The translations under genes were made by a program, and so were the position numbers. Below are positions 26,013-50,061 of a DNA stretch of 64,000 bases, in pieces (position 1 is the first letter of the stretch; each line of letters begins with the position of its first letter). The notes beneath the pieces are model-generated. The model was not told the origin of the DNA, did no database searches, and saw only the letters and a list, made by a program, of their open reading frames with translations. This DNA is from an uncultured Bacteroides sp. (GTDB lineage Bacteria; Bacteroidota; Bacteroidia; Bacteroidales; Bacteroidaceae). Where the stretch lies: contig NZ_OY762899.1 of NCBI RefSeq assembly GCF_963666545.1, positions 2,852,001 through 2,916,000 of the forward strand, read 5' to 3'.

Positions 26013-27482
26013 ATGAAGCAGTGTTTTTTTGCAGTCGATTTGGGAGCCACTAGTGGGCGTACTATTCTAGGCTCTTTATCAGATAAAGGTCTCGAACTGG
26101 AGGAAGTAAACCGTTTTCCTAATCATTTGATTGAAGTTGGAGGACATTTTTATTGGGATATTTATGCTTTGTATCAGCATGTTGTAGATGGTTTGAAGCT
26201 TGCTGCTCAGCGAGAGGTGAAAATTACATCTATCGGTATTGACACTTGGGGAGTCGATTTTGTTTGTGTAGGTGAGGATGGGCACATCCTTCGTCAGCCT
26301 TATGCTTATCGCGATCCTCATACTAATGGTGCGCCTGAGGCTTTTTTTAGTCGTGTATCCCGTAGTCGCGTTTATGAATTAACAGGTATTCAAGTGATGA
26401 ACTTTAATTCACTGTTTCAGCTTGATACGCTTCGTCGCAATAACGATAGTGCACTCGCTGCTGCTAAGAAAATACTCTTTATTCCGGATGCTCTGTCTTA
26501 TATGTTATCCGGTGAAATGGTAACAGAATATAGCATTGCTACCACAGCGCAATTAGTGAATGCTAAAACGCGTAAGTTAGAACCAGAATTGCTTGCAAGC
26601 CTTGGTTTGACGGAAGAGAACTTTGGACGCTTTGTATATCCGGGCGAAACGATTGGTGCTTTGAGCGAAGAAGTACAAAAGCAAACCGGATTGGGAGCCA
26701 TCCCTGTGATAGCTGTTGCCGGACATGATACCGGATCGGCCGTAGCCGCTGTACCTGCGCTGAACAGTAATTTTGCTTATTTAAGTAGTGGTACGTGGTC
26801 ACTGATGGGCGTGGAAGCAGAAGCACCTGTGGTGAATGCTGAAACAGAAGCGTTGAACTTTACTAACGAAGGTGGTGTCGAAGGTACCATTCGTCTACTG
26901 AAAAATATTTGTGGCATGTGGCTTTTGGAGCGTTGCCGAGCAGAATGGGGGGAAACATCTTATCCTGATTTGATCGCTGAAGCAAAGGCTGCTGAGCCTT
27001 TCCGTAGTATTATTAATCCCGACGATGCACTTTTTGCCAATCCTACTCACATGGAGAAGGCTATTTTTGGTTACTGCGAAGCAACAGGGCAGCCCGTTCC
27101 GGATACTCGTGCTCGCATCGTGCGTTGCATCTTCGAAAGTTTGGCGTTGCGTTATCGTCAGGTACTAGAGAATCTAAGTAAACTATCTCCTCGTCCTGTT
27201 GAGACTCTTCACGTTATCGGCGGCGGCAGTCGAAATGACCTTTTGAATCAGTTTACAGCTAATTCTACAGGGGTAACAGTAATTGCCGGACCTTCAGAGG
27301 CTACAGCCATTGGTAATGTAATGGTACAGGCCATGGCTTCAGGCGTAGCCGATAGTATTGGCGAGATGAGAAAGCAAATAAATGCTTCTATTCCTCTTGC
27401 TACTTTCCAACCTCAGGATGCTGCAGCTTGGGATGAGGCGTATGCGCAGTATCTTACTATATTGACTAATAAAAGCAAATAA
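26013..27482 (+). CDS. rhaB: Rhamnulokinase
   Basis: 489 residues, FGGY carbohydrate kinase. The N-terminal phosphate motif is FFAVDLGATSGRTILG (5-20), GIDTWGVDFV lies near 75-84, and IGGGSRNDLLNQFTA in the second domain binds ATP. It phosphorylates L-rhamnulose to rhamnulose 1-phosphate in the cytoplasm. It is first in the tight series rhaB-rhaA-rhaT (gaps 24 and 30 bp). The B. thetaiotaomicron counterpart is called rhaK in the rhaKIPAO operon (recalled). Confidence 0.94.
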   Translation: MKQCFFAVDLGATSGRTILGSLSDKGLELEEVNRFPNHLIEVGGHFYWDIYALYQHVVDGLKLAAQREVKITSIGIDTWGVDFVCVGEDGHILRQPYAYRDPHTNGAPEAFFSRVSRSRVYELTGIQVMNFNSLFQLDTLRRNNDSALAAAKKILFIPDALSYMLSGEMVTEYSIATTAQLVNAKTRKLEPELLASLGLTEENFGRFVYPGETIGALSEEVQKQTGLGAIPVIAVAGHDTGSAVAAVPALNSNFAYLSSGTWSLMGVEAEAPVVNAETEALNFTNEGGVEGTIRLLKNICGMWLLERCRAEWGETSYPDLIAEAKAAEPFRSIINPDDALFANPTHMEKAIFGYCEATGQPVPDTRARIVRCIFESLALRYRQVLENLSKLSPRPVETLHVIGGGSRNDLLNQFTANSTGVTVIAGPSEATAIGNVMVQAMASGVADSIGEMRKQINASIPLATFQPQDAAAWDEAYAQYLTILTNKSK

Positions 27483-27506
27483 ATAATAACTTAAAAAGAT
27501 TATATT

Positions 27507-28763
27507 ATGAAAGAAGAATTGATTAAAAGAGCCTATGAGATTGCGGTAGAACGCTATGCAGCTGTTGGTGTAGATGCTGATAAAGCCATCGAAAAACTAC
27601 AAAAAATAGCATTATCTCTACATTGCTGGCAAGCAGATGATGTAGCTGGTTTTGAAAATCCAGACGGGCAACTGTCAGGAGGTATTCAAGCTACAGGTAA
27701 CCATCCCGGTAAAGCTCGTAATATTGAAGAGTTGCGTCAAGACATCCTTAAGGCAGCTAGCTATATTCCGGGAACTCATCGTTTGAATCTTCATGCTACT
27801 TACGGTGACTTTGGTGGCAAATTCGTTGATCGTGATCAGATAGAACCTAAGCACTTTGAGAGCTGGATGCAATGGGGAAAAGAGAACGGAATGAAACTTG
27901 ATTTCAATTCAACTTCATTTTCACATCCTAAAAGTGGTAGTCTTTCGTTATCAAATCCTGATGATAGCATTCGTAACTTCTGGATTGAGCACACAAAACG
28001 TAGCCGTGCTATTGCTGAAGCAATGGGTAAATTTCAAGGTGATCCTTGTATCATGAACCTTTGGATTCACGATGGTAGTAAAGATCAAACAGTGAACCGC
28101 TTGCGTTATCGTGAACTATTAAAACAGTCACTGGATGAGGTTTTTGCGACGAAGTATGATAACATGAAAGACTGCATCGAAGCCAAACTTTTTGGAATCG
28201 GAGCAGAAAGTTATACCGTTGGTTCTTATGATTTCTATCTGGGATATGGTTCTAAGAACAACAAGATGGTGACTTTGGATACCGGACATTTCCATTTGAC
28301 AGAGAGCATTGCAGACAAGATCTCTTCTCTGTTACTCTTCACTCCTGAAATCATGTTGCATGTTAGTCGCCCTGTACGTTGGGATAGCGACCACGTAACT
28401 ATTATGAATGATGATACATTGGATTTGGCCAAAGAAATTATTCGTTGTGGTGCTCTCGATAAAGTACATATTGGTCTTGATTATTTCGATGCAAGTATCA
28501 ATCGTATTGGTGCGTATGTAGTAGGTAGCCGCGCTACACAGAAATGTTTCATGCAAGCATTGCTTGAACCCCTTGCTAAACTTCGCGAATATGAAGCGAA
28601 CGATCAATTGTTCGAACGCCTTGCCCTACTTGAAGAATCAAAAGCATTGCCATGGAATGCTGTATGGGATATGTTCTGTTTGAAGAATGATGTTCCTGTA
28701 GGAGAAGACTTTATTACTGAAGTTCAGAAGTATGAAAACGAAGTAACTTCAAAGAGAAATTAA
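27507..28763 (+). CDS. rhaA: L-rhamnose isomerase
   Basis: 418 residues matching the family length. The TIM-barrel metal-site segments are LHATYGDFGGKFVDRDQIEP (about 92-111), NLWIHDGSKD (181-190) and LDTGHFHLTESIADKI (252-267). It interconverts L-rhamnose and L-rhamnulose using Mn2+. In the Bacteroides rha nomenclature this is the isomerase rhaI; the Enterobacteria symbol is used here. Confidence 0.95.
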   Translation: MKEELIKRAYEIAVERYAAVGVDADKAIEKLQKIALSLHCWQADDVAGFENPDGQLSGGIQATGNHPGKARNIEELRQDILKAASYIPGTHRLNLHATYGDFGGKFVDRDQIEPKHFESWMQWGKENGMKLDFNSTSFSHPKSGSLSLSNPDDSIRNFWIEHTKRSRAIAEAMGKFQGDPCIMNLWIHDGSKDQTVNRLRYRELLKQSLDEVFATKYDNMKDCIEAKLFGIGAESYTVGSYDFYLGYGSKNNKMVTLDTGHFHLTESIADKISSLLLFTPEIMLHVSRPVRWDSDHVTIMNDDTLDLAKEIIRCGALDKVHIGLDYFDASINRIGAYVVGSRATQKCFMQALLEPLAKLREYEANDQLFERLALLEESKALPWNAVWDMFCLKNDVPVGEDFITEVQKYENEVTSKRN

Positions 28764-28793
28764 GATTATAAGCGTCGCTAATATAAAGATATC

Positions 28794-29822
28794 ATGAACA
28801 CACTTGTCGGACTTATCATCATTGCTATAGGCAGTTTAGGGCAAAGTAGCTCGTACGTGCCAATCAAGAAAGTAAAACAATGGAGTTGGGAAAGCTTCTG
28901 GCTGGTGCAAGGCATCTTCGCTTGGTTGGTTTTTCCTTTTCTGGGTGCTTTGCTTGCTATTCCTGAGGGTAGTAATTTGTTCGAGCTTTGGAGCTCGGGC
29001 GGCGCTATGCCTTCTATCATCTACGGCGTGTTGTGGGGAGTTGGTGGGTTGACGTTCGGTCTGAGTATGCGCTACCTTGGGGTGGCGTTGGGACAAAGTA
29101 TTGCACTCGGCACATGTGCTGGTTTCGGTACACTTTTTCCTGCTATTTTTAGTGGAAAAGATTTGTTCCACGGCGAAGGCCTGTTGTTGCTTATTGGTGT
29201 GTGCATTACACTGGCTGGTATTGCAGTCATTGGATACGCCGGTAGTCTTCGCTCTCAGAACATGACTGACGAGGAAAAGAAAGCTGCTGTAAAGGACTTT
29301 GCGTTGACCAAAGGATTGCTTGTGGCTCTGCTGGCAGGTGTGATGAGTGCTTGTTTTGCTCTAGGGCTTGAAGCGGGGACACCCATAAAGGAAGCTGCTA
29401 TTGCAGGTGGAGTTGAAGGGCTTTATGCCGGTCTTCCTGTGATATTTCTGGTGACGTTTGGTGGTTTTATGACTAATGCAGCCTATTGTATTCAGCAGAA
29501 TGTGAAGAACAAAACGGGCAAGGAATACTTTACTGTTAAAGGTAGCACTCTGACAAACAATATTTTGTTCTGTGCGCTTGCCGGTGTACTTTGGTATTCT
29601 CAGTTCTTTGGTCTTGAAATGGGTAAAAGTTTTCTTGATAGTCCGATTCTGCTGGCTTTTTCATGGAGTATATTGATGTCGCTCAATGTTACATTCAGTA
29701 ATGTTTGGGGCATCATTTTAAAAGAATGGAAAGGAGCAAGCAGTATCACTGTTTTAGTACTTGTCTTAGGGCTGTTAGTGCTAATTTCGTCTATCATTGT
29801 AGTAGCGATGTCACAAGCTTAA
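28794..29822 (+). CDS. rhaT: L-rhamnose/proton symporter
   Basis: 342 residues with about ten hydrophobic segments, the first at 2-20. It matches RhaT throughout: SLGQSSSYVPIKKVKQWSWE at 14-33, WGVGGLTFGLSMRYLGVALG near 81-100 and a FSNVWG motif near 302. It imports L-rhamnose across the inner membrane and is followed by a region holding an internal promoter before rhaD. Confidence 0.94.
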   Translation: MNTLVGLIIIAIGSLGQSSSYVPIKKVKQWSWESFWLVQGIFAWLVFPFLGALLAIPEGSNLFELWSSGGAMPSIIYGVLWGVGGLTFGLSMRYLGVALGQSIALGTCAGFGTLFPAIFSGKDLFHGEGLLLLIGVCITLAGIAVIGYAGSLRSQNMTDEEKKAAVKDFALTKGLLVALLAGVMSACFALGLEAGTPIKEAAIAGGVEGLYAGLPVIFLVTFGGFMTNAAYCIQQNVKNKTGKEYFTVKGSTLTNNILFCALAGVLWYSQFFGLEMGKSFLDSPILLAFSWSILMSLNVTFSNVWGIILKEWKGASSITVLVLVLGLLVLISSIIVVAMSQA

Positions 29823-29871
29823 AAGGAAGTCTGGCTTTTATGAAGCTGACCTGATTATTAATAAATAGATT

Positions 29872-29912
29872 TTTGGCTATGCAAATGAAAGATTATCTTT
29901 GTTGCATAGCCA
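29872..29912 (+). promoter_or_regulatory. Internal promoter inside an inverted repeat, upstream of rhaD
   Basis: TTTG (29872-29875), an 18-base spacer and TATCTTTG (29894-29901) form a consensus promoter. The same DNA carries the inverted repeat TGGCTATGCAA/TTGCATAGCCA (29874-29884 and 29902-29912), whose loop contains the -7 box. It could be a repressor operator or an RNA hairpin in the rhaB-A-T message. Confidence 0.6.
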
Positions 29913-29930
29913 GAATTAAATAACAAGAAT

Positions 29931-30740
29931 ATGAAATCAATATTAGAAAATCGTCCGGTACTAGCCAAACAGGTAGCTGATGTAGCTGAAGTAGCCGGAT
30001 ATCTCTGGCAAAAAGGTTGGGCTGAACGTAATGGAGGAAATATCACCATCAATATTACAGATGTAATTGATGATGAGATTAGAAATATGAAAGCGATTAG
30101 TGACCGAGTTGAGATCGGTTCTTGCCTTCCGCACTTAAAAGGATGCTACTTTTTTTGTAAAGGGACCAATAAACGCATGCGTGATTTGGCCCGTTGGCCT
30201 ATGGAAAATGGATCGGTTATCCGTATCTGTGATGATTGCTCAAGTTATGAAATAATAGCAGATAAGCCTGTTGCTCCCACTTCAGAATTGGCTTCTCATT
30301 TATCTATGCACAATTATCTGATAGGTAGTGGCTCTAACTATAAAGCAGCAGTGCATACCCACCCAATTGATTTGGTAGCAATGACTCACAATCCTGCTTT
30401 CTTGAAAAAAGATGTGTTGACGAAATTGCTTTGGAGTATGATTCCGGAGACAAGAGCTTTCTGCCCAAAAGGTTTGGGCATTATCCCTTATGCTTTGCCT
30501 AGTTCTTTTGAATTAGCAAATGCAACAGTCAAAGAACTTGCTGACTACGACGTCGTGATGTGGGAAAAGCATGGAGTTTGCTCTGTTGGTGAAAATGTGA
30601 TGGAAGCATTCGACATGGTTGATACACTTTCCAAATCAGCTCAGATATATCTTACAGCTAAATCGATGGGGTTTGAGCCTGAAGGTATGTCAGATGAACT
30701 GATGGAAGAGCTTAAAGTCGCTTTTAATCTGCCTAAATAG
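29931..30740 (+). CDS. rhaD: Rhamnulose-1-phosphate aldolase
   Basis: 269 residues, class II (zinc) aldolase. An N-terminal GGNITINI phosphate-binding block (36-43), AVHTHPIDLV with the zinc ligands His-x-His (near 140-142) and WEKHGVCS with a further zinc His (near 212) are intact. It cleaves rhamnulose 1-phosphate to dihydroxyacetone phosphate and L-lactaldehyde. No lactaldehyde reductase gene lies next to it. Confidence 0.94.
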   Translation: MKSILENRPVLAKQVADVAEVAGYLWQKGWAERNGGNITINITDVIDDEIRNMKAISDRVEIGSCLPHLKGCYFFCKGTNKRMRDLARWPMENGSVIRICDDCSSYEIIADKPVAPTSELASHLSMHNYLIGSGSNYKAAVHTHPIDLVAMTHNPAFLKKDVLTKLLWSMIPETRAFCPKGLGIIPYALPSSFELANATVKELADYDVVMWEKHGVCSVGENVMEAFDMVDTLSKSAQIYLTAKSMGFEPEGMSDELMEELKVAFNLPK

Positions 30741-38804: not shown

Positions 38805-40916
38805 ATGAAGAAACTATTTTATTCGTTTACTGCTTTAGTGCTTGTTGCATGCGGTGCCTTTGCTAAGCAATCACCGATTGATCGTGAGGCTCTTGTAACT
38901 CGTAATAATCCGCAAGTTACCTCTTTTGATTCTCTCTCTTCTCTTTCAGTAGGAAATGGAGAGTTTGCCTATACCGTAGATGCTACGGGTTTGCAAACAT
39001 TCCCGGCTCAGTATTCGCAAGGGGTGCCTTTGGGTACGCAGAGTCAATGGGGTTGGCATTCATTCCCAAATCCGGAGAAGTTTACACCTCAGGAAGCACT
39101 AAAAGACTATGATTTTGGCCGTGGTCGTATGGAGCCTTATTCTGTTGAGTTTAAGGAAGATGGGCGTAATAAAGATGCATCTAACTGGTTACGGGCCAAT
39201 CCTCATCGCTTGCATTTAGGTATTGTTGGTCTGGAGTTGGCTGAAGGCGTTACTCCTGCAAAGTTTACCAATATTCATCAAACACTTGATATGTGGCAGG
39301 GCGTTATCCGCAGCAGTTACAAAATATCAGGTGTATCTTATAAGGTTGAAACTGCTGTTCATCCGCATGCTGATATGATTGCTGCCCGTGTTACATCCAA
39401 TGGAAATAAGGACATCAATTTCCGCTTTCCTTATCCTACCGGAGGACATTCAGATGATGCATGTTTGTGGAATGCTAATGATAAGCACTCTACTACTCTT
39501 GTTTCACAAGATGTGAACTCAGCCGTGCTGAAACGTCAAATAGATGATACAGTCTATTATGTTACTATCCGTTGGGAAGGCAAAGCCACACTAAGAGAGA
39601 AAGAGAAAAACTATTTTGTACTTACTCCTCAGGGCAAAACTATCGACTTTACTTGCGCTTTTACTTCAGAAGCAGCTTCTACAGAAAAAGCAACTGTGGC
39701 AGAAACATTGAACGCTTCGGCTAACTATTGGAATGGTTATTGGAAGAAAGGTGCTGCTGTAGATTTTTCCCTATGCAAAGATACGCGAGCCAAAGAATTG
39801 GAACGCCGTGTGGTGCTTAGCCAATATTTACTTGCTATTCAGTGTGCAGGAACAACTCCTCCACAAGAGACAGGCTTGACTTACAACTCTTGGTTTGGCA
39901 AGTTCCATCTTGAAATGATATGGTGGCATCAGGCACAATTTGCTTTATGGAACCGTGCCGATTTACTGGACCGTACTCTTTCTTGGTATGAGAAGGTAGA
40001 GCCTATAGCTCGCGAGATAGCAAAACGTCAGGGATTTGACGGCATCCGCTGGATGAAGATGACAGATCCTAGCGGGCAAGAAGCTCCTTCTAAAGTAGGC
40101 AGTTTCCTTATCTGGCAACAACCACATTTTATCTATTTGGCTGAGCTAATTTATCGTTCAAATCCAAATTCTGATGTGCTTAAGAAATATAACCGTTTGG
40201 TTCAGGAAACAGCTAAGTTTATGTACTCTTTCGCAACTTATGATGAAGCTAACAAACGTTACGTGTTGAAAGGTGCTATCCCTGCACAGGAAACTCTTCG
40301 TGCAGCAGAGACTGTTAACCCTCCTTTTGAACTCTCATACTGGTACTATGCTATGCAAACAGCACAAAAATGGCTGGAACGTACGGGGCAAAAACGTAAT
40401 GTACAATGGGATGAGATGATCGAGAAATTATCTCCGCTGGCATACAATAGCGACAAGCTTTATCTGGCAGCAGAAACGGCGCTTGACACATACAAAGATG
40501 TTCGTTTCACTTCCGATCACATGGCTGTTCTGGGTGCGGTAGGCATTTTACCGATGAATAAACTTATTCGCCAAGATTATATGAAGAATACTTTTGATTG
40601 GATATGGGACAACTGGAACTGGGACTCTACTTGGGGATGGGATTATCCGATGACTGCCATGAACGCTGCTCGTATGGGCGAGCCTGACAAAGCTGTTGGT
40701 GCTTTGCTTATGAATAAGCGTACCAATACCTATCTGATAAGCGGGCACAATTATAAGGATGAACGTTTGCGTGTTTACCTTCCAGGTAACGGTGGCTTGC
40801 TTACTGCTGTGGCAATGATGTGTGCTGGTTGGGATGGTTGCACTGTAGAGAATCCGGGTTTTCCGAAAGACGGAAAGTGGAACGTGCGTTGGGAAGGATT
40901 AAAACCAATGCCATAG
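38805..40916 (+). CDS. Secreted six-hairpin (alpha/alpha toroid) glycosidase-like protein, family not assigned
   Basis: 703 residues with an N-terminal signal (LVLVACGAFAKQS; the Cys could be lipidated but no strict lipobox follows). The N-terminal half has a beta-sandwich character (SLSVGNGEFAYTVDATGLQTFP). The C-terminal half has alternating helices with GLTYNSWFGKFHLEMIWWHQAQF near 357-379 and DWIWDNWNWDSTWGWDYPMTAMNAARM near 605-630, as in GH65/GH95/GH15-type clans. Candidate acids are the Glu in HLEMIWW and the Asp in STWGWDYP. Substrate unknown. It is cotranscribed with the DUF4450 gene 28 bp downstream. Confidence 0.75.
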   Translation: MKKLFYSFTALVLVACGAFAKQSPIDREALVTRNNPQVTSFDSLSSLSVGNGEFAYTVDATGLQTFPAQYSQGVPLGTQSQWGWHSFPNPEKFTPQEALKDYDFGRGRMEPYSVEFKEDGRNKDASNWLRANPHRLHLGIVGLELAEGVTPAKFTNIHQTLDMWQGVIRSSYKISGVSYKVETAVHPHADMIAARVTSNGNKDINFRFPYPTGGHSDDACLWNANDKHSTTLVSQDVNSAVLKRQIDDTVYYVTIRWEGKATLREKEKNYFVLTPQGKTIDFTCAFTSEAASTEKATVAETLNASANYWNGYWKKGAAVDFSLCKDTRAKELERRVVLSQYLLAIQCAGTTPPQETGLTYNSWFGKFHLEMIWWHQAQFALWNRADLLDRTLSWYEKVEPIAREIAKRQGFDGIRWMKMTDPSGQEAPSKVGSFLIWQQPHFIYLAELIYRSNPNSDVLKKYNRLVQETAKFMYSFATYDEANKRYVLKGAIPAQETLRAAETVNPPFELSYWYYAMQTAQKWLERTGQKRNVQWDEMIEKLSPLAYNSDKLYLAAETALDTYKDVRFTSDHMAVLGAVGILPMNKLIRQDYMKNTFDWIWDNWNWDSTWGWDYPMTAMNAARMGEPDKAVGALLMNKRTNTYLISGHNYKDERLRVYLPGNGGLLTAVAMMCAGWDGCTVENPGFPKDGKWNVRWEGLKPMP

Positions 40917-40944: not shown

Positions 40945-43900
40945 ATGAACAAATATCACCTGTTTTTTTTGCTTTGCCTTCTCTTTGGGGCAGCAGAAAA
41001 ACTTTTAGGGCAGGCTCCTACAAAGCGGATTGGCGATTTTATAGAATCGACCTCTTACAATGAGCATAAACGTGGGGCACTTCGCTCGCTACAGTATCAT
41101 CCGGATGGAGAAGATTTTGTTTCGATTAATGGAGTGAACCGCTATACGCGTGCGCTTTATGCCAGAACTTCTCCTTTTCGTCTCGAGACGAGTGATCGGC
41201 CTGTGTTTGCAGCTTATGACAAACGGAATAGCAAGAATATCCGCTTTCGTGTGGCCGTAGGAAAGACTTCTGTTGCTCTTGATTCTGTCTCTTTCTGTGA
41301 AGCTCGATATACACCCGGGCGTCGGAGCTACCGATTAACAGATCCTTCTTGGGGAAAAGGGAAGCTCCTTATCTCTGTCTTGCCTTTTTCAGATAAAGAC
41401 GGTGCTGTTTGGAAAATAATAGCTTCTGATATGCCGGTTGGTGCTAAACTGACTTGTTTGCTTTCCGAAATAAAAACGAAACGTCTGAATCGTAATGGTG
41501 ATATGGGTGCTGATCCGGCTGATAGCTTTGAAGCGCCGGAACATCCTTTGTCCTTGCAGCAATGTCAGCTTTCGCTGGCTTCTGTTGGCTATCTGCTTTT
41601 AGAGAATCTCGCTTTGCGAGTTCCGGAAATGTCGGAAGGAAGTTCTCTGTATGAAAAGGCGGAGCAGGCTCGTGTTGCATTGGCTTCTCGAATCAAGATT
41701 AATACTCCAGACGCCTATTTCAATACATTGGGTGGAGCCCTTTCTGTCGCAGCCGATGCCATTTGGGACGGTGAAGTTTGGTTGCACGGGGCAGTAGGCT
41801 GGCGAATGCCACTTAGCGGTTGGCGTGCTGCATATACAGGTGATGCTCTTGGTTGGCACGATCGTGCCCGGAAGCATTTCGATGCTTATGCTGCTAGTCA
41901 GGTAACCGCTGTACCACAAACGATTCCGCACCCGGCACAAGATCCTGAGATGAATCTTGCCCGTTCTATTAAGCAATGGGGAACACCCCAATATAGCAAC
42001 GGATACATCTGTCGTAATCCGCACAATCCTAATCAGATGCACCATTACGACATGAATCTTTGCTACATTGATGAACTACTTTGGCACTTCAATTGGACGG
42101 GTGATTTGGACTATGCCCGCCAGATGTGGCCTGTTATTGTTCGCCATCTTGATTGGGAGAAGCGTAATTATGATCCCAATGGCGATGGACTTTATGATGC
42201 TTATGCCTGTATCTGGGCAAGCGATGCGCTTTACTATAGTTCGGGTGCGGTAACTCATTCGTCTGCTTATAACTATCGCGCCAACAAAATGGCAGCAGAG
42301 ATAGCTTCTAAGATCGGCGAAGATTCTGCTCCTTATCGTGCTGAGGCTGAAAAGATACTGAAAGCACTTAACGCTCGTTTGTGGATGCCTTCAAAGGGGC
42401 ATTGGGCCGAATATCAAGATTTGATGGGACATGGTCGCTTGCATGAAAGTGCTGCTGTGTGGACTATCTATCATGCGATTGATAGCGAAACGGCTGATCC
42501 TTTTCAATCTTATCAGGCCACTCGATATGTGGATACTGAAATACCCCATATACCTGTTGTTGCCAAAGGCTTGAAAGATGAAGGTTATGCTACTGTTTCT
42601 ACTACCAACTGGTTACCTTATTCGTGGAGCATCAACAATGTTGCTTTTGCTGAGGTGATGCATACCTCCCTTTCTTATTGGCAAGCCGGGCGCAACGATG
42701 AAGCTTTTAAGTTGCTTAAAAGCTCCGTACTCGATGGGATGTATCTTGGAGGAAGTCCCGGTAACTTCGGCCAGGTCAGCTTTTATGACGCTGCCCGCGG
42801 AGAGTGTTATCGAGATTTTGGTGATCCTATTGGTGTTGCTTCTCGTGCTCTTATACAAGGGCTTTATGGTATCCTTCCCGACGCACTTAATGGTAAGTTG
42901 CTCATTCGTCCGGGTTTCCCTGCTGAATGGCCTTATGCTTCGCTTGTTACGCCCGATGTGTCGTTTGATTATCGTCGTGAAGGAAAGACTGATGTTTACA
43001 AGATAGCGCAACACTTTAGTAAGTCATTGTCTCTTGAATTGCAATGTCGTGCTCGGATGGATAAAGTTGTTCGCCTTACTATAAATGGGCAACCTGCAAC
43101 ATGGAAACAAGTTGAAACATCTGTTGGTCAGCCTGTTTTGTCCATAACAGTTCCTGCAGCTACTACTTGTGAAATAAAGATAGAGTGGGGAGGTAGCTTA
43201 ATTAAAACAACGATTGCCGATGCAGATCGTAGTTTTAAAATTGGTGATCGCTTCCAATTGGCGTTATCCCAGTATAAAGTGAATAAATTATATGATCCGC
43301 AAGGTGTGTTAGAGGATGCGAGAATCAATGGAAAAGAAATTGAAGGACGTGTGTGTGGAGAGGTAGGAAGTCGTACCTTGTTTGCACATGTTCGTCAAGG
43401 TGACTTGGCGTGGTGGCAACCTATCAATGTAGTAGTAAAAGCTGATATCGCTCCTGCGACTCCTGCATTTGAGCATGTTGTTGCAACTTCTTGCCGTCCG
43501 GTAAATATGGACACTGCATTTAATGCTTCCGTTACGGATATTTTCCGCAATGAATACCTAACGCCTCGTTCTCCTTATACTACTCTTCAACTACCTAAAC
43601 AAGGGATAGGTGAATGGTGCCATCCTAAAACTACGGCAGAGATAGACGATTCGGGCATGCGTGCGCAGGTAAGAGACGGTTTGCTTTCTACTAAATTGGG
43701 CGTGTCTTTCCGCACTCCGGCGCAAGGTAGGAACATTGCTTTCACTTCATTGTGGGACAATTATCCCGATAGCTTACGCATTCGCTTGAGTGGTAAAGCT
43801 TCTCACGCCTATCTTCTCATGGCTGGTAGCACTAATCACATGCAATGTCACATAGCCAACGGCATCATTCGCGTGCATTATAGCGATGGGACTAGTGATA

Positions 43901-44202
43901 CACTTACTTTGGTAAATCCGGAGAACTGGTGTCCGATAGAACAGGATTTTTTTGTGGATAACATTGCTTTCAAACTCAAAGTTCCCAGACCTTATCGTTT
44001 GCATTTAAAGTCCGGTTTGGTAAGTAATGATCTGGAGAAGGATCTCGGAATTGAAGGCGTTTACGGCCGCCCTATTGATGGGGGAGCTGCAATCTTACTT
44101 GATATGCCTCTGGATCCTGAAAAGGATTTGAGCTATTTGACTTTGGAAACTCTTTCAAATGATGTAGTGATTGGGCTGATGAGTATAACTCTCCAACCAT
44201 AG
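40945..44202 (+). CDS. Large secreted DUF4450-like six-hairpin protein
   Basis: 1085 residues with an N-terminal signal (YHLFFLLCLLFGAAEKLLGQ). The early segment TSYNEHKRGALRSLQYHPDGEDFVSINGVNRYTRALY matches my memory of the DUF4450 family. Residues about 250-660 form a helical toroid (VWLHGAVGWRMPLSGWRAAYTGDALGWHDRA; HHYDMNLCYIDELLWHFNWTGD), then two or more C-terminal beta domains. Activity is not known to me; a glycosidase or lyase role is likely from fold and context. It is convergent with the sugar-oxidation operon across a repeat-rich gap. Confidence 0.75.
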   Translation: MNKYHLFFLLCLLFGAAEKLLGQAPTKRIGDFIESTSYNEHKRGALRSLQYHPDGEDFVSINGVNRYTRALYARTSPFRLETSDRPVFAAYDKRNSKNIRFRVAVGKTSVALDSVSFCEARYTPGRRSYRLTDPSWGKGKLLISVLPFSDKDGAVWKIIASDMPVGAKLTCLLSEIKTKRLNRNGDMGADPADSFEAPEHPLSLQQCQLSLASVGYLLLENLALRVPEMSEGSSLYEKAEQARVALASRIKINTPDAYFNTLGGALSVAADAIWDGEVWLHGAVGWRMPLSGWRAAYTGDALGWHDRARKHFDAYAASQVTAVPQTIPHPAQDPEMNLARSIKQWGTPQYSNGYICRNPHNPNQMHHYDMNLCYIDELLWHFNWTGDLDYARQMWPVIVRHLDWEKRNYDPNGDGLYDAYACIWASDALYYSSGAVTHSSAYNYRANKMAAEIASKIGEDSAPYRAEAEKILKALNARLWMPSKGHWAEYQDLMGHGRLHESAAVWTIYHAIDSETADPFQSYQATRYVDTEIPHIPVVAKGLKDEGYATVSTTNWLPYSWSINNVAFAEVMHTSLSYWQAGRNDEAFKLLKSSVLDGMYLGGSPGNFGQVSFYDAARGECYRDFGDPIGVASRALIQGLYGILPDALNGKLLIRPGFPAEWPYASLVTPDVSFDYRREGKTDVYKIAQHFSKSLSLELQCRARMDKVVRLTINGQPATWKQVETSVGQPVLSITVPAATTCEIKIEWGGSLIKTTIADADRSFKIGDRFQLALSQYKVNKLYDPQGVLEDARINGKEIEGRVCGEVGSRTLFAHVRQGDLAWWQPINVVVKADIAPATPAFEHVVATSCRPVNMDTAFNASVTDIFRNEYLTPRSPYTTLQLPKQGIGEWCHPKTTAEIDDSGMRAQVRDGLLSTKLGVSFRTPAQGRNIAFTSLWDNYPDSLRIRLSGKASHAYLLMAGSTNHMQCHIANGIIRVHYSDGTSDTLTLVNPENWCPIEQDFFVDNIAFKLKVPRPYRLHLKSGLVSNDLEKDLGIEGVYGRPIDGGAAILLDMPLDPEKDLSYLTLETLSNDVVIGLMSITLQP

Positions 44203-44243
44203 ATCGGTTTTGCCTGTTTTTTCTTACTTATTTTAAAGTCAAA

Positions 44244-44329
44244 GTTTCCTTCCTTTAAACCATTAGTTTCAATACGTAGAAACTTTTGATTTAAGGGAAG
44301 GAAACCATTCGTTTCCACGTATTGAAACT
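44244..44329. repeat. Interleaved double inverted repeat (A-B-A'-B')
   Basis: Arm A (44244-44259, GTTTCCTTCCTTTAAA) pairs with A' (44290-44305) with one mismatch. Arm B (44265-44283, AGTTTCAATACGTAGAAAC) pairs with B' (44311-44329) with one mismatch. The arms interleave, a pseudoknot-like order, and the GTTTC/GAAAC units also allow smaller hairpins. It lies between convergent genes and may act as a bidirectional terminator or be a dispersed repeat. Confidence 0.8.
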
Positions 44330-44394
44330 AAATAGGCTTCGTGTGTCCGTAGGCATGAAGATATTAGTGCTACTATAAAGAAAGCGCTATTTGC

Positions 44395-45411
44395 CTATAA
44401 CTCCACTAAAATACGGAATACTTTGCCTGGGTCTGCTGCCCATTCATTCATCGCATCAGTGGCCTTTTCGGGTTTCACAATCATCGAAATCAGCTCATCT
44501 TTAGGACAAGTGCCTTGTTTAAGGTAATGAATTACTGCACGAAAATCTTCCGGCAATGCATTGCGAGAACCGCGTATGTCCAGCTCTTTCTGCACAAAAT
44601 ATTTTGTTTGGAAGGCGACTTCACTCTTAGCATAACCAATGCATACTACTCTACCGGTGAAAGCAACTTCATCTACAGCCATAACGTAAGTCACAGGGCT
44701 ACCCACTGCTTCAATAATAACATCAGGACCAAAACCTTCCGTAATCATTTGCAATGATTCATGTACGTTGTCTGTCTTAGAGTTAATAGTGTGCTGGGCA
44801 CCAACTCGTTTTGCCAATGCTAATTTCTCATCATCCAAATCGACTGCAATAACCTTAGCACCACGAAGGGCCGCACGAACAATCGCTCCCATACCAATCA
44901 TCCCACAGCCAATTACCATAACTGTATCAATATCAGTAACTTGAGCACGAGATACGGCATGGAAGCCCACACTCATGGGTTCAATTAAAGCACAGTCGCG
45001 AGGCGAAATACCTGTTGCCGGAATGATTTTAGCCCACGGCAAAGAGAGATATTCGCTCATGGAGCCGTTGCGTTGTACGCCCAAAGTCTCGTTGTGTTCG
45101 CAGGCATTCACCCGTCCGTTACGACAAGAAGCGCATTTACCACAGTTGGTGTAAGGATTCACGGTGACACTCATACCCACTTCCAATCCTGCGGGAACGG
45201 CACTACCGATTGCTTCGATCACTGCACCGACTTCATGTCCCGGTACAACAGGCAATTTCACCATAGGGTTGCGGCCTAAATAAGTATTCAGGTCGGAACC
45301 ACAAAACCCGACATATTTAATTTTCAAGAGAACTTCATCTGCTTTCATTGCAGGCTTCTCTACATCAACCACCTTCATTTCGGAAGGAGCTGTAATTTGA
45401 ATTGCTTTCAT
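44395..45411 (-). CDS. Zinc-dependent alcohol/polyol dehydrogenase (LgoD-like candidate)
   Basis: 338 residues, MDR superfamily. Catalytic zinc ligands are Cys37, His59 and Glu60; the structural zinc cysteines 90, 93, 96 and 104 and the NAD motif VIGCGMIGMG (about 169-178) are present. The segments YLSLPWAKIIPATGI, ALIEPMSVGFHAVSRA and GSRNALPEDF closely recall E. coli LgoD (YjjN), which oxidises L-galactonate to D-tagaturonate; this comparison is from memory. It is last in a four-gene operon with a permease, an amidohydrolase and an aldose dehydrogenase-like enzyme. Alternative: another sugar acid or polyol. Confidence 0.85.
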   Translation of the reverse strand: MKAIQITAPSEMKVVDVEKPAMKADEVLLKIKYVGFCGSDLNTYLGRNPMVKLPVVPGHEVGAVIEAIGSAVPAGLEVGMSVTVNPYTNCGKCASCRNGRVNACEHNETLGVQRNGSMSEYLSLPWAKIIPATGISPRDCALIEPMSVGFHAVSRAQVTDIDTVMVIGCGMIGMGAIVRAALRGAKVIAVDLDDEKLALAKRVGAQHTINSKTDNVHESLQMITEGFGPDVIIEAVGSPVTYVMAVDEVAFTGRVVCIGYAKSEVAFQTKYFVQKELDIRGSRNALPEDFRAVIHYLKQGTCPKDELISMIVKPEKATDAMNEWAADPGKVFRILVEL

Positions 45412-45457
45412 CTTTATTGTTATTAAAATCGATTCTTTATTTACTTGATTTCTTTTT

Positions 45458-46726
45458 TCAATCTACTATTTTATATCCTTTCCATCCATAATAAGCACAG
45501 AACAGGAAGCAGATCATTGGTATAATGTATGCTATGTAATAAATGTTTTGATTGAGGTGCATGATATAAGCAGTGAGTTGCGGTAGGCAAGCATTTCCCA
45601 CGATGGCCATTACCAGGAATGCGGAACCACTCTTTGTATTGCTACCCAATCCTTTTAAAGCCAAAGAAAATTGTGTGGGATACATAATGGACATAAAGAA
45701 TGATACTGCGAGCATGGCATATAGTCCAACTGTTCCGCCACAACAAATGATAACTCCACACAGGGCTACATTAATAAGAGCGTAGACCAATAGCATATCT
45801 TGTGGACGGAATTTGATCATTAACAAGGTACCAATCCACCGTCCTGACAGGAACGCCAACATGTAGAGTCCGAAGAAAGTCGTAGCCGTGTTTTCTTCTA
45901 AACCGGCGTAGCTACAGCAATATACCAGGAATAAGCTGTTTATTGCCGTTTGTCCTCCGTTATAAAAGAATTGTGCAATGACACCCCAACGTAAGTGAGA
46001 ACGTTTCAGCACAGAGAAATTTATTAGCTTTCCCCCTTTTTCACTATCACCTTCTACGCTATCTCCTTCTTTTATTTTGGGTAATTTGGAGAAGACGAAA
46101 ACGATTGCAATAACGATCAGTAATAATCCCAAGATCAGATAGGGCAGTTTCATGGAATCGGTTTCCATCTGGATATATCCTTCCCATCCACCCGAAAAAT
46201 CAGCGGGTAGAGTGTCGCGTGTATAGTGATTGCCACTCAGAACGAGCTTGCTTAGGAACATTGCCGAGATGAATGCACCCAGCCCATTGAATGATTGGGC
46301 AAGGTTTAGTCTTCGAGGAGCTGTTTCCTGATCGCCTAAAGCGGTAACATAAGGATTGGCTGCTGTCTCAAGGAAACACATTCCCGTAGCGATGACGAAG
46401 AAGATGCAAAGGTAAGCCCAATATTCCTTCAATATGGCCGCTGGGAAGAATAGAAAACCACCGCATGCGGCTAGTATAAGTCCGAAAATTATTCCCGATT
46501 TATAACTATAGCGTTTCATAAACATCGCAATAGGGATGGGGAAAATAAAATAAGCCAACCAATAGGCCGTTTCGGTAAAGGATGCTTCAAATGCATTTAG
46601 TTCGCATGTTTTCATTAACTGTCGAATCATAGTAGGCAGCAGATTACTACTGATGGCCCACAAGAAGAACAGAGAGAAAACCAGTGCAAGAGGCAATAAA
46701 TAATTATTTTTTTTCATGGTATACAA
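45458..46726 (-). CDS. FucP-type sugar/proton symporter
   Basis: 422 residues, major facilitator with about 12 membrane segments. It carries FucP-family motifs, notably FLETAANPYVTALGDQETAPRRLNLAQSFNGLGA (about 118-151). FucP imports L-fucose and related L-galacto sugars in E. coli; in Bacteroides the family also covers glucose/galactose carriers. The start may be at the second Met (MKKNNY, 46717). It sits between the amidohydrolase and dehydrogenase genes (gaps 23 and 46 bp), so it likely imports their substrate. Confidence 0.88.
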   Translation of the reverse strand: MYTMKKNNYLLPLALVFSLFFLWAISSNLLPTMIRQLMKTCELNAFEASFTETAYWLAYFIFPIPIAMFMKRYSYKSGIIFGLILAACGGFLFFPAAILKEYWAYLCIFFVIATGMCFLETAANPYVTALGDQETAPRRLNLAQSFNGLGAFISAMFLSKLVLSGNHYTRDTLPADFSGGWEGYIQMETDSMKLPYLILGLLLIVIAIVFVFSKLPKIKEGDSVEGDSEKGGKLINFSVLKRSHLRWGVIAQFFYNGGQTAINSLFLVYCCSYAGLEENTATTFFGLYMLAFLSGRWIGTLLMIKFRPQDMLLVYALINVALCGVIICCGGTVGLYAMLAVSFFMSIMYPTQFSLALKGLGSNTKSGSAFLVMAIVGNACLPQLTAYIMHLNQNIYYIAYIIPMICFLFCAYYGWKGYKIVD

Positions 46727-46749
46727 TTGTACTATTTAGTGATTAGGTG

Positions 46750-47676
46750 TTATTCTGACATGTTTTTTATGTAAGGCAATTGGGGGAGATTTTTAAAGCC
46801 ATAAAAGGTTTCAGCATTCTGTCCCAGAAAACGAGCTTTTTCGTCGGCCGATAATTCTTGAGACTTCAATACGAAGTCATAAGACATCTTGTAAGTAATG
46901 GCCGTTATTGTTCGCGGATAGTCGGAACCCCACATTAGTTTCTCCATTCCCACCAATCCTGCGGCTTCACGGATAGCTTTTATCGCTCCCTTAAAAGGAT
47001 AAAACTCATCATTGAACAACCAAGTGATTCCTCCTGATTCAATCATTACATTCTCATAGCGAGCCAGTTTGATTTGCTCCTGCCAGTTTGGAGTTGTTAC
47101 CATTCCGAAGTGCCCGATGGCTACTTTTAGATCAGGATACTGCTGAATGACCTCTTTCATTTCACCCACCTGCATTTCGCCGTCGGCTAAGTCGATAGAA
47201 AGAATCATCTTGCTTTCTTCCATGTAGGCAAACGTCTGCATCATTTCTTCGCAGTTGAGCATCACTCTTCCTTCTTTTAGCAACAAACGTTGAGCTGGAA
47301 TCTTGATTGCTTTGAATCCTAGACCATGCAATTCTTTTATTTGCTCATAATAGCCAGGTTTGCGAAACTCGCACATGCCACACACGAAGAAGCGGTTAGG
47401 ATACCTACTTATTACATCGAGAAGATATTCATTTTGAATTCCGTCAATATATTCTTGGGTAATGACAGCTGCCGATACCTGTGCATAGTCCATGTTTGAG
47501 AGGAAGACTTCGGCCGAATTTTGTCCGTCAATCATAAAGGGAGGAAGCATTTGTCTCACCTCACCCATAAACTCCGAACGTCCGTTGCCGATATCACGAA
47601 TCGGTAAACCATTCACTACTGTGTCTTGTTTAAGCCACAAGTGAGAATGTGCATCAATGATTTTAAAGTCGTTCAT
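46750..47676 (-). CDS. Amidohydrolase-family protein, probable sugar lactonase
   Basis: 308 residues with the amidohydrolase_2 TIM barrel: IIDAHSHLW gives metal ligands near His10 and His12, AIGHFGM a later His, and GSDYPRTI the C-terminal Asp. Members hydrolyse lactones (such as L-fucono- or L-rhamnono-lactone) or decarboxylate. Placed between an aldose dehydrogenase-like AKR and a FucP permease, a lactonase role fits best. Cytoplasmic, no signal peptide. Confidence 0.82.
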   Translation of the reverse strand: MNDFKIIDAHSHLWLKQDTVVNGLPIRDIGNGRSEFMGEVRQMLPPFMIDGQNSAEVFLSNMDYAQVSAAVITQEYIDGIQNEYLLDVISRYPNRFFVCGMCEFRKPGYYEQIKELHGLGFKAIKIPAQRLLLKEGRVMLNCEEMMQTFAYMEESKMILSIDLADGEMQVGEMKEVIQQYPDLKVAIGHFGMVTTPNWQEQIKLARYENVMIESGGITWLFNDEFYPFKGAIKAIREAAGLVGMEKLMWGSDYPRTITAITYKMSYDFVLKSQELSADEKARFLGQNAETFYGFKNLPQLPYIKNMSE

Positions 47677-47697
47677 AGTAATTCCTCTTTTACGTGG

Positions 47698-48630
47698 TTA
47701 AGAGTTAAACCAACTAACGCGCTTTTGATCCCCGATAATGTCTTGCACCTCTTGTACCAGATTCCAGTCGATTGCTTCTTCGGCATATTGAATATTCATC
47801 TCTACATTTTCAGGGTTGGCTGAACTGAAGAGCGTCGTTGCGATGCGTGGATTGCTTATCGAGTATTGAATGGCTAGTTTCTCTATTGCGCAACCTTTAG
47901 ATGAACAATGTTGAACGGCTTTTTTACAAGCTTCCACTAAAGATATGGGAGCCGGGTGCCAAGATGGGACACCTCTTTGTGAGAGTAAGCCCATGGAGAG
48001 AGGAGAAGCATTGATTACTCCAATGTTGTGAGCTTCGAAGAAATCGAGAAAGTCAGCCAGCTTGTCATCATTCAGGCAGTAATGGCAAAAATTAAGGATA
48101 CTTTCCACACTTCCCGGGGCAGAATGCTCTATCACCCATTGCAGATTCTCCAATTGAAGATCGGTTATTCCTACATGTTTTACAATTCCTTTTGTGCGCA
48201 GTTCTACTAATGCGGGTAAAGTTTCAGTAACGATCTGATTCAGATCAGCAAATTCTATATCGTGAACATTAATCAAATCAATGTAATCAATGTTTAGCCG
48301 TTCCATACTTTCGTACACACTCTCTGTGGCACGTTTGGCAGAGTAATCCCACGTGTTTACGCCATCTTTTCCGTAGCGTCCCACTTTAGTCGATAAATAA
48401 TATGCATCACGAGGAAGGTCTTTTAGTGCTTTGCCTAAAACCGTTTCAGCTTTGTAGTGTCCATAGTAAGGTGAAACGTCGATGAAATTCATTCCTTTCT
48501 CTACTGCAGTAAATACCGCTCTTATCCCCTCTGCCTCACGAATATCGTGAAATACTCCTCCTAGTGAAGATGCACCGAAGCTGAGGCTCGAAACTTTCAT
48601 TCCTGTCTTTCCAATTTCATTGTAAATCAT
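47698..48630 (-). CDS. Aldo/keto reductase, L-galactose/L-fucose dehydrogenase-like
   Basis: 310 residues. The complete AKR tetrad is visible: Asp51 and Tyr56 in DVSPYYG, Lys82 in STKVGRYG and His123 in NVHD. The overall pattern resembles plant L-galactose dehydrogenase and bacterial D-threo-aldose (L-fucose) dehydrogenases, which oxidise the sugar to a lactone with NAD(P). It is first in the operon, preceded by a minus-strand -7 box at 48663-48670 and divergent from a LacI regulator. Confidence 0.87.
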   Translation of the reverse strand: MIYNEIGKTGMKVSSLSFGASSLGGVFHDIREAEGIRAVFTAVEKGMNFIDVSPYYGHYKAETVLGKALKDLPRDAYYLSTKVGRYGKDGVNTWDYSAKRATESVYESMERLNIDYIDLINVHDIEFADLNQIVTETLPALVELRTKGIVKHVGITDLQLENLQWVIEHSAPGSVESILNFCHYCLNDDKLADFLDFFEAHNIGVINASPLSMGLLSQRGVPSWHPAPISLVEACKKAVQHCSSKGCAIEKLAIQYSISNPRIATTLFSSANPENVEMNIQYAEEAIDWNLVQEVQDIIGDQKRVSWFNS

Positions 48631-48662
48631 AGTATCTTTCTATTAAAGTGATAATTAATATC

Positions 48663-48670
48663 CAAAAATA
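48663..48670 (-). promoter_or_regulatory. -7 box of the sugar-oxidation operon
   Basis: The minus strand reads TATTTTTG, about 32 bases before the ATG at 48630. No -33 element is clear. Confidence 0.5.
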
Positions 48671-48713
48671 GAACATACATTGAATATACCTAAGAATGGC
48701 TGCCTAAAAAAGC

Positions 48714-48729
48714 ACGCAAAGGTTTGCGT
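48714..48729. promoter_or_regulatory. Palindromic candidate LacI-family operator
   Basis: ACGCAAAGGTTTGCGT has perfect 7-bp arms (ACGCAAA/TTTGCGT) and a 2-base centre, in the middle of the divergent intergenic region. Size and symmetry fit LacI/GalR-family sites. Confidence 0.6.
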
Positions 48730-48746
48730 CAATCCGCCATTATCTA

Positions 48747-48777
48747 TTGGTTATGTAACCTGAAACAGTTATATTTG
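48747..48777 (+). promoter_or_regulatory. Promoter of the LacI-family gene
   Basis: TTG (48747-48749), a 20-base spacer and TATATTTG (48770-48777); the -7 box ends 17 bases before the ATG at 48795. Confidence 0.7.
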
Positions 48778-48794
48778 CGAAAATAGCTATTGCC

Positions 48795-49829
48795 ATGAAG
48801 ACAAATACGCATATCTCGTTAAAGAATTTGGCAGAAGAACTCGGAGTCTCTATTTCCACTGTATCCCGGGCTCTCAAAGATAGTCCCGAAATAGGACCTG
48901 AAATGAGAGAGCGCGTCAAGGCACTTGCTCGTAAATATAACTATAGACCGAATCCTTTTGCTATGAGCCTGCTTAAAAACAGTCCTCGGATTATTGGTAT
49001 TCTGGTACCTGACTTGGTAACCCACTTTTATTCCTCCATAATTAGCGGTATTAGTGATGTAGCTAAACAAAATGGTTATTCTGTTATTATTACTTCATCT
49101 TATGAGCAATATGAACTCGAGAAACAATGTCTGGACGATTTGATAAATATTCGTGTGGAAGGTATCATTGCTTGTTTATCTCAAGAAACAACAGACTATA
49201 GTCATTTCGGAGCTTTAGAATCACAGAACATTCCGTTGGTGTTCTTCGATCGCATCTGTCCCGGAGGTAGATTCTCTTCTGTTGTTGCCGATAATGTAGA
49301 ATCGGCCCGTCTTGCTACAGAACATTTATTGCAGACAGGATCAAAACGTATCGGATTTATCGGAGGCGCCAACCATTTGAAGATAGTAGAGGAACGAAAA
49401 CATGGTTATTTGGAAGCATTGAGGCAAAACAAAATATCGATAGAAAAAGAACTCGTTATTTGCGAGAAAATGACTTATGATGAAGGACGTGAAGCTACTC
49501 GCCGGTTACTCTCTCTCTCAAATCCACCCGATGCCATTTTAGCCATGAATGATGCGTTGGCTTTTGCTGCGATGAAAGAGATTAAGAACCATCATCTATG
49601 TATCCCGAAAGACATTGCTCTGATTGGTTATACAGATGAGATGCATTCAAATTACGTGGAACCTGCTCTTACGGCCGTTACCCATCAAACTTACAAAATG
49701 GGCGAGGCGTCTTGTAAACAGTTACTTGCACAGATAAAGGCGAGGACAACTCCTTTGCAGATAGTTATCCGCACACATTTAGTTGTCAGAGAATCATCTT
49801 GTAAGAAGTCTCTAGACAGTAATGTCTAG
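48795..49829 (+). CDS. LacI/GalR-family transcriptional regulator
   Basis: 344 residues. The N-terminal helix-turn-helix SLKNLAEELGVSISTVSRALKDSPEIG (about 8-34) and hinge region precede a periplasmic-binding-protein-like sensor (about 63-340; IIGILVPDLVTHFYSSIISGI). Divergent from the AKR operon and flanking a perfect palindrome, it most likely controls that operon in response to its sugar or a pathway intermediate. Confidence 0.92.
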   Translation: MKTNTHISLKNLAEELGVSISTVSRALKDSPEIGPEMRERVKALARKYNYRPNPFAMSLLKNSPRIIGILVPDLVTHFYSSIISGISDVAKQNGYSVIITSSYEQYELEKQCLDDLINIRVEGIIACLSQETTDYSHFGALESQNIPLVFFDRICPGGRFSSVVADNVESARLATEHLLQTGSKRIGFIGGANHLKIVEERKHGYLEALRQNKISIEKELVICEKMTYDEGREATRRLLSLSNPPDAILAMNDALAFAAMKEIKNHHLCIPKDIALIGYTDEMHSNYVEPALTAVTHQTYKMGEASCKQLLAQIKARTTPLQIVIRTHLVVRESSCKKSLDSNV

Positions 49830-49880
49830 TTAAATCTGTTGAAATTAAGCAAGGGGGAAAAGATAATCATTTACATTACA

Positions 49881-49910
49881 TTGTGTATTCAACTTTTTTT
49901 CGTACTATTG
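49881..49910 (+). promoter_or_regulatory. Likely promoter of the 39-residue membrane protein
   Basis: TTG (49881-49883), a 19-base spacer and TACTATTG (49903-49910), one mismatch from TAnnTTTG. It ends 31 bases before the ATG at 49942. Confidence 0.45.
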
Positions 49911-49941
49911 CACGAATTTTAAAGAAAGGATAAACGTCGCA

Positions 49942-50061
49942 ATGGCTATATTGATAGGATTTGTTGTTTTTCTTGTTGTGGCTGGGGTTTGGTGTTACAT
50001 TTGTATCCGCAAAGCACCCAGCGATAAAGAGCTATGGGGTGACGATGAGGGTATAGATTAA
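49942..50061 (+). CDS. 39-residue single-pass membrane microprotein
   Basis: ATG 49942 to TAA 50061. Residues 2-22 are strongly hydrophobic (begins MAILIGFVVFLVV), followed by the charged tail IRKAPSDKELWGDDEGID, so an N-out/C-in anchor with an acidic C-terminus is likely. It has a candidate promoter and an AGGA 14-17 bases before the start. It is not part of the lacI gene, whose stop is 112 bp upstream. Function unknown; the clean amphipathic layout makes chance unlikely. Confidence 0.65.
   Translation: MAILIGFVVFLVVAGVWCYICIRKAPSDKELWGDDEGID

Follow-up and report, generated by a model that had tools for sequence, protein, structure and literature searches.

The 64,000-nucleotide stretch analyzed here (the window; C1:2852001-2916000 of the single-contig, 4.45 Mb genome of an uncultured Bacteroides sp.) carries a four-gene operon on its minus strand at 44395-48630, which encodes an aldo-keto reductase (AKR), an Amidohydro_2 protein, a FucP-type permease and a zinc dehydrogenase. 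Judged from the encoded proteins, this is in all likelihood a LacI-controlled L-galactose utilization operon of the kind represented by Bvu0219-0222 of Phocaeicola vulgatus. The four genes are assigned with good support, and the set recurs across Bacteroidales. L-galactose is a rare sugar of plants and seaweed. An earlier interpretation, made from the nucleotide letters without database searches (the sequence-only reading), had named five open reading frames; all five sit at the positions it gave and belong, by Pfam, to the families it gave:

47698..48630, minus strand: AKR, predicted L-galactose 1-dehydrogenase (L-galactose to L-galactono-1,5-lactone); Aldo_ket_red domain, identity to 7lh6, catalytic tetrad
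46750..47676, minus strand: Amidohydro_2 protein, predicted L-galactonolactonase; PF04909, weak NF052480 match, invariant residues, structure model
45458..46726 (TTG start) or 45458-46717 (ATG start), minus strand: FucP-type permease of the major facilitator superfamily, predicted L-galactose importer; MFS_1, TIGR00885
44395..45411, minus strand: zinc medium-chain dehydrogenase, predicted L-galactonate 5-dehydrogenase giving D-tagaturonate; ADH_N, ADH_zinc_N, invariant residues
48795..49829, plus strand: divergent LacI-family regulator, presumed repressor of the operon; PF00356, PF13377, divergent homologue in relatives

The genes are separated by gaps of 46, 23 and 21 bases, and an ATG start of the permease, which is possible, would widen the gap of 23 to 32. 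In the proposed pathway, the permease would import L-galactose, the AKR would oxidize it to L-galactono-1,5-lactone, and the amidohydrolase would open this lactone, giving L-galactonate, whose C5 the zinc dehydrogenase would oxidize to give D-tagaturonate. Enzymes encoded elsewhere would then convert D-tagaturonate to D-altronate, 2-keto-3-deoxygluconate, 2-keto-3-deoxy-6-phosphogluconate (KDPG) and finally pyruvate and glyceraldehyde 3-phosphate, and the LacI protein would repress the operon.

Operon proteins and their conservation

Gene content, gene order and conservation are established here, as are the catalytic residues and the families of the downstream genes. Homologous loci were gathered with the AKR alone, as the best 80 of at least 585 matching stretches (AKR 75-98% identical), so the counts that follow describe fairly close relatives; a gene was counted as present at 50% identity or more over 80% of its length. 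The amidohydrolase is found in 77 of the 80 loci and the zinc dehydrogenase in 73, with both together in 73. Where the locus extends at least 4.5 kb past the AKR, both genes are present in 69 of 71 cases, the exceptions being L041 and L081 (our locus labels), and one further locus (L071) has the zinc dehydrogenase placed ahead of the AKR. Such a recurrence of the gene set is far more than chance would give. A FucP homologue of at least 50% identity lies between the amidohydrolase and the zinc dehydrogenase in 36/80 loci, the rest having a distant or partial one or none, and a divergent LacI homologue is present in 26/80. The nearest named relative among the 80 is Bacteroides ihuae (L005), with an AKR 98% identical and all four operon proteins 95-98% identical to those of the window. 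P. plebeius (L026) matches the window in all four genes and in their order, and no P. vulgatus record occurs among the 80 loci.

PDB 7lh6, an entry deposited under the name L-galactose dehydrogenase, shares 73.9% identity with the AKR over 310 residues. The five best PDB matches of the AKR all carry this name, with ranks 2-5 (9w6y, 7smi, 7ezi and 8scc) scoring 276-315 bits and the next match only 99 bits, and together they bear out the resemblance to L-galactose dehydrogenases that had been proposed. The tetrad D51/Y56/K82/H123 is intact, as had also been noted, and is kept in 80/80 homologues.

The amidohydrolase belongs to PF04909 (Amidohydro_2), and its residues H10, H12, H189 and D252 are invariant across 62 aligned proteins (the window protein and 61 of the 77 homologues that could be used). 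A Foldseek search with its structure model (predicted local distance difference test score, pLDDT, 91) returns as top matches 4i6k, a probable 2-pyrone-4,6-dicarboxylate hydrolase, and 4dlf/4do7, a COG3618 amidohydrolase of Burkholderia multivorans. The 4dlf protein is reportedly an L-fuconolactonase. The permease scores above the cut-off of the TIGR00885 fucP model (345.6 bits, cut-off 280.4) and below that of a second FucP model, NF007524 (293 bits, cut-off 427); it also passes the gluP model.

The zinc dehydrogenase contains ADH_N and ADH_zinc_N domains, and C37/H59/E60, C90/C93/C96/C104 and E144 do not vary across an alignment of 20 sequences (the window protein and 19 of the 73 homologues that could be used); these include the catalytic and structural zinc ligands of the family. 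The blocks ALIEPMSVGFHAV and GSRNALPEDF, from which the sequence-only reading had called the protein LgoD-like, are present; the likeness itself is not supported past the common dehydrogenase family, as the closest solved relative is RspB (4ilk). An RspB-like function was considered and set aside in view of the operon around the gene, and the match to the NCBIfam model PRK10083 (NF007489, Zn-dependent oxidoreductase) is below its cut-off (200 bits, cut-off 376).

The same reading had D-tagaturonate entering ordinary uronate metabolism. When uxaB, uxaA and kdgK were sought elsewhere in the genome, tagaturonate reductase was found above its cut-off, as a single Mannitol_dh protein (640.8 bits, cut-off 359), while UxaA and KdgK were found by Pfam family only, the former as one altronate/galactarate dehydratase family protein and the latter as a PfkB kinase that adjoins the KDPG aldolase (374.1 bits, cut-off 275). 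The genes for this aldolase, the kinase and the dehydratase occupy a stretch of roughly 5 kb (417.5-422.1 kb of the genome). Some relatives carry uxaB/uxaA homologues or genes of the glycoside hydrolase family 29 (GH29) type at the operon's own locus. The uxaB and uxaA homologues form an adjacent pair on the operon's strand in 8/80 loci (L009, L020, L022, L042, L058, L066, L073 and L077; one representative of each was checked), and are an independent pointer to D-tagaturonate. GH29-type genes are found in 12/80 (one representative checked), which fits the release of an L-galacto-configured sugar.

LacI regulator and an operator-like palindrome

Between the LacI and AKR genes lies a 16-base palindrome that may serve as the operator:

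48714..48729, no strand assigned: operator-like palindrome between LacI and AKR, putative function suggested by position and recurrence in relatives

At up to one mismatch it is the sole site in the genome; a backwards control pattern also gives 1 site, so the genome count says little. Within the window, a match to the pattern at up to two mismatches arises in 36/100 shuffles. The weight of the palindrome is in its position and its recurrence in relatives and not in the genome count. The LacI-AKR spacers of 25 relatives were compared without a shuffled control (the 26 loci with a divergent LacI minus L006, whose spacer is too long), with a motif picked after inspection of the sequences: in 10 there is a motif of the window's type, with the form GCAAA..TTTGC or CGTAAA..TTTACG, 9 have only the TTTACGTAAA palindrome, and 6 have neither motif. 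The same search of the genome at up to one mismatch, read as a search for a regulon, gave no second site and so indicated no distant L-galactosidase. The palindrome stretch is also flagged as terminator-like on the minus strand. Scans of 44000-50000 found no excess of promoters (16 sites, 15.2 in shuffles) or of terminators (5 sites, 4.0 in shuffles).

Known pathways and alternative substrates

The operon appears to share with the P. vulgatus system (Bvu0219/Bvu0220/Bvu0222) an AKR, an amidohydrolase lactonase and a zinc dehydrogenase leading toward D-tagaturonate. No difference in kind was detected; the species and the sequences differ. Bvu0220 is reportedly the lactonase, and the 1,5-lactone reportedly the first product, in Hobbs et al. 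2014 (Biochemistry 53:4661). The permease is likewise reported to be the third gene of the P. vulgatus operon. In Escherichia coli, the pathway begins at L-galactonate and is not known to include an L-galactose dehydrogenase or a lactonase. The catabolism of L-galactonate through D-tagaturonate is what the E. coli LgoD pathway shares with the system proposed here (PMC12632266).

The oxidative route in its proposed order is supported by our sequence evidence together with the published pathway (PMC12632266). The sequence-only reading had considered such a route notable for gut Bacteroides; it had already been described in 2014, as the L-galactose metabolism of Phocaeicola (Bacteroides) vulgatus (Hobbs et al. 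2014, as cited in PMC12632266). The published pathway matches the one that had been proposed, down to the order of its steps; the proposal therefore describes a known route, of which the window very probably holds a further copy.

Several points weigh against this assignment. Substrates, direction, transport and repression are predictions from sequence. The similarity of the amidohydrolase to named lactonases is weak (26.6 bits to NF052480, L-fucono-1,5-lactonase, cut-off 400), and decarboxylases come next in its list of fold matches. The zinc dehydrogenase scores above no cut-off among the 25 NCBIfam models shown, and the NCBIfam matches of UxaA and KdgK are below cut-off. The uniqueness of the palindrome in the genome is not an enrichment. 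Finally, orthology to BVU_0219-0222 is inferred, because the BVU proteins were absent from the sequences compared.

The lgu cluster of Luteolibacter LG18 offers a second comparison, as it shares an L-galactose dehydrogenase of the BVU_0219 cluster, an L-galactonate dehydrogenase and a downstream tagaturonate reductase (PMC12632266). It differs in adding a C4 epimerase for L-glucose and in holding several of the downstream enzymes itself, and the words amidohydrolase and lactonase are absent from the main text of the paper on it (PMC12632266). This dual pathway raises the alternative that L-glucose/L-gluconate or another L-aldose is the operon's substrate, since LguA accepts L-glucose as well as L-galactose and clusters with BVU_0219 by sequence (PMC12632266). 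However, LguA has a 40-fold higher kcat/Km for L-galactose, L-glucose and L-gluconate are used very inefficiently by BVU_0219 and BVU_0222 (PMC12632266), and there is no C4 epimerase among the operon's four genes. We consider an operon for any of these other sugars extremely improbable.

L-fucose is the other sugar that had been named as an alternative. The operon would then mainly encode an oxidative pathway from L-fucose through L-fuconolactone and L-fuconate to a 5-keto-6-deoxy acid, in keeping with a permease that scores as FucP, with the GH29-type genes co-located in 12/80 loci, and with a genome that has fucosidase-type genes (four GH29 matches, three strong and one weak GH95 match) yet lacks L-fucose isomerase when screened with PF07881 and PF02952. 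The missing isomerase had prompted L-fucose as the main substrate, a proposal rejected after the search of other genomes with an AKR locus: 14/19 have an isomerase, and the operon is therefore no general substitute for it. For this search, 20 loci from named isolates were chosen out of the 80 and L020 was left out; excluding L041, which lacks the full gene set at its locus, the count becomes 13/18. The five genomes without an isomerase are L005, L022, L033, L035 and L066, whose completeness is not stated. Further, neither a fuconate dehydratase nor the later genes of a dehydratase-type L-fucose route are found among the operon's four genes (a search of the operon only), the uxaB/uxaA pair at 8/80 loci suits D-tagaturonate and not a 6-deoxy product, and the related LguA has no L-fucose activity above the detection limit (PMC12632266). 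Mainly on the isomerase count and the LguA result, L-fucose as the main substrate is not favored, and we regard it as very unlikely. We see an equally slim chance that the operon handles both L-galacto sugars in this organism, also oxidizing L-fucose to the 5-keto-6-deoxy acid, which would be excreted or enter an undescribed branch. Bacteroides ihuae, taken as a control genome, likewise has no L-fucose isomerase match.

Neighboring polysaccharide utilization locus

Next to the L-galactose operon, on the plus strand, is a polysaccharide utilization locus (PUL) with GH88, GH106, rhamnose genes, an AraC-type regulator, SusC/SusD, a 703-aa protein and a DUF4450 protein. Its end at 44202 faces the end of the operon at 44395, so that the two are convergent, with a hairpin between them:

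38805-40916, plus strand: 703-aa protein with a predicted GH65/GH95-like fold (structure model)
40945-44202, plus strand: DUF4450 protein, after the 703-aa gene
44244..44305, no strand assigned: strong hairpin between the PUL end and the operon end, a probable two-way terminator (RNA fold)

The RNA fold of 44240-44345 has an energy of -33.8 kcal/mol (z -6.3 against 200 shuffles), and an inverted copy of part of the hairpin lies nearby. In the AKR loci, which reach up to 10 kb from the AKR and are in many cases shorter, a 703-aa homologue stands beside the operon in 1/80 (L005) and a DUF4450 homologue in 2/80 (L005 and L033). The PUL was considered as part of the operon's system and was not included because of the convergence on the hairpin and this rare co-occurrence. 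For the same reasons, the link to pectin or rhamnogalacturonan II that the sequence-only reading had drawn comes down to proximity.

At E 0.1 or better, sequence comparison pairs the 703-aa protein with no solved structure. Its model is of moderate quality (pLDDT 71), and the best structural matches are GH65 and GH95 proteins at 12-14% identity, including 4ufc (BACOVA_03438). A review describes two GH95 enzymes with L-galactosidase activity (printed 'beta-l-galactosidase') and has BACOVA_03438 and BT1010 in its GH95 table. The GH95-like fold of the model may thus be a lead to the source of the sugar and is not evidence for it. In the available portions of papers on porphyran (PMC12316285) and carrageenan (PMC5698469), nothing was found on the operon's enzymes.

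No paper was found that combines 'DUF4450' and 'glycoside hydrolase'. Of the family's 301 genomes, 68 encode a relative of the 703-aa protein, and among the 30 best of their loci (the window's own included) 21 have a DUF4450 match and none has an operon gene, these loci being about 4-5 kb and too short to exclude a nearby operon. Possibly the 703-aa and DUF4450 proteins are an undescribed glycosidase pair. Elsewhere in the PUL, a rhamnose utilization set (kinase, isomerase, transporter and aldolase) lies at 26013-30740 amid the GH88, GH106 and SusC/SusD genes.

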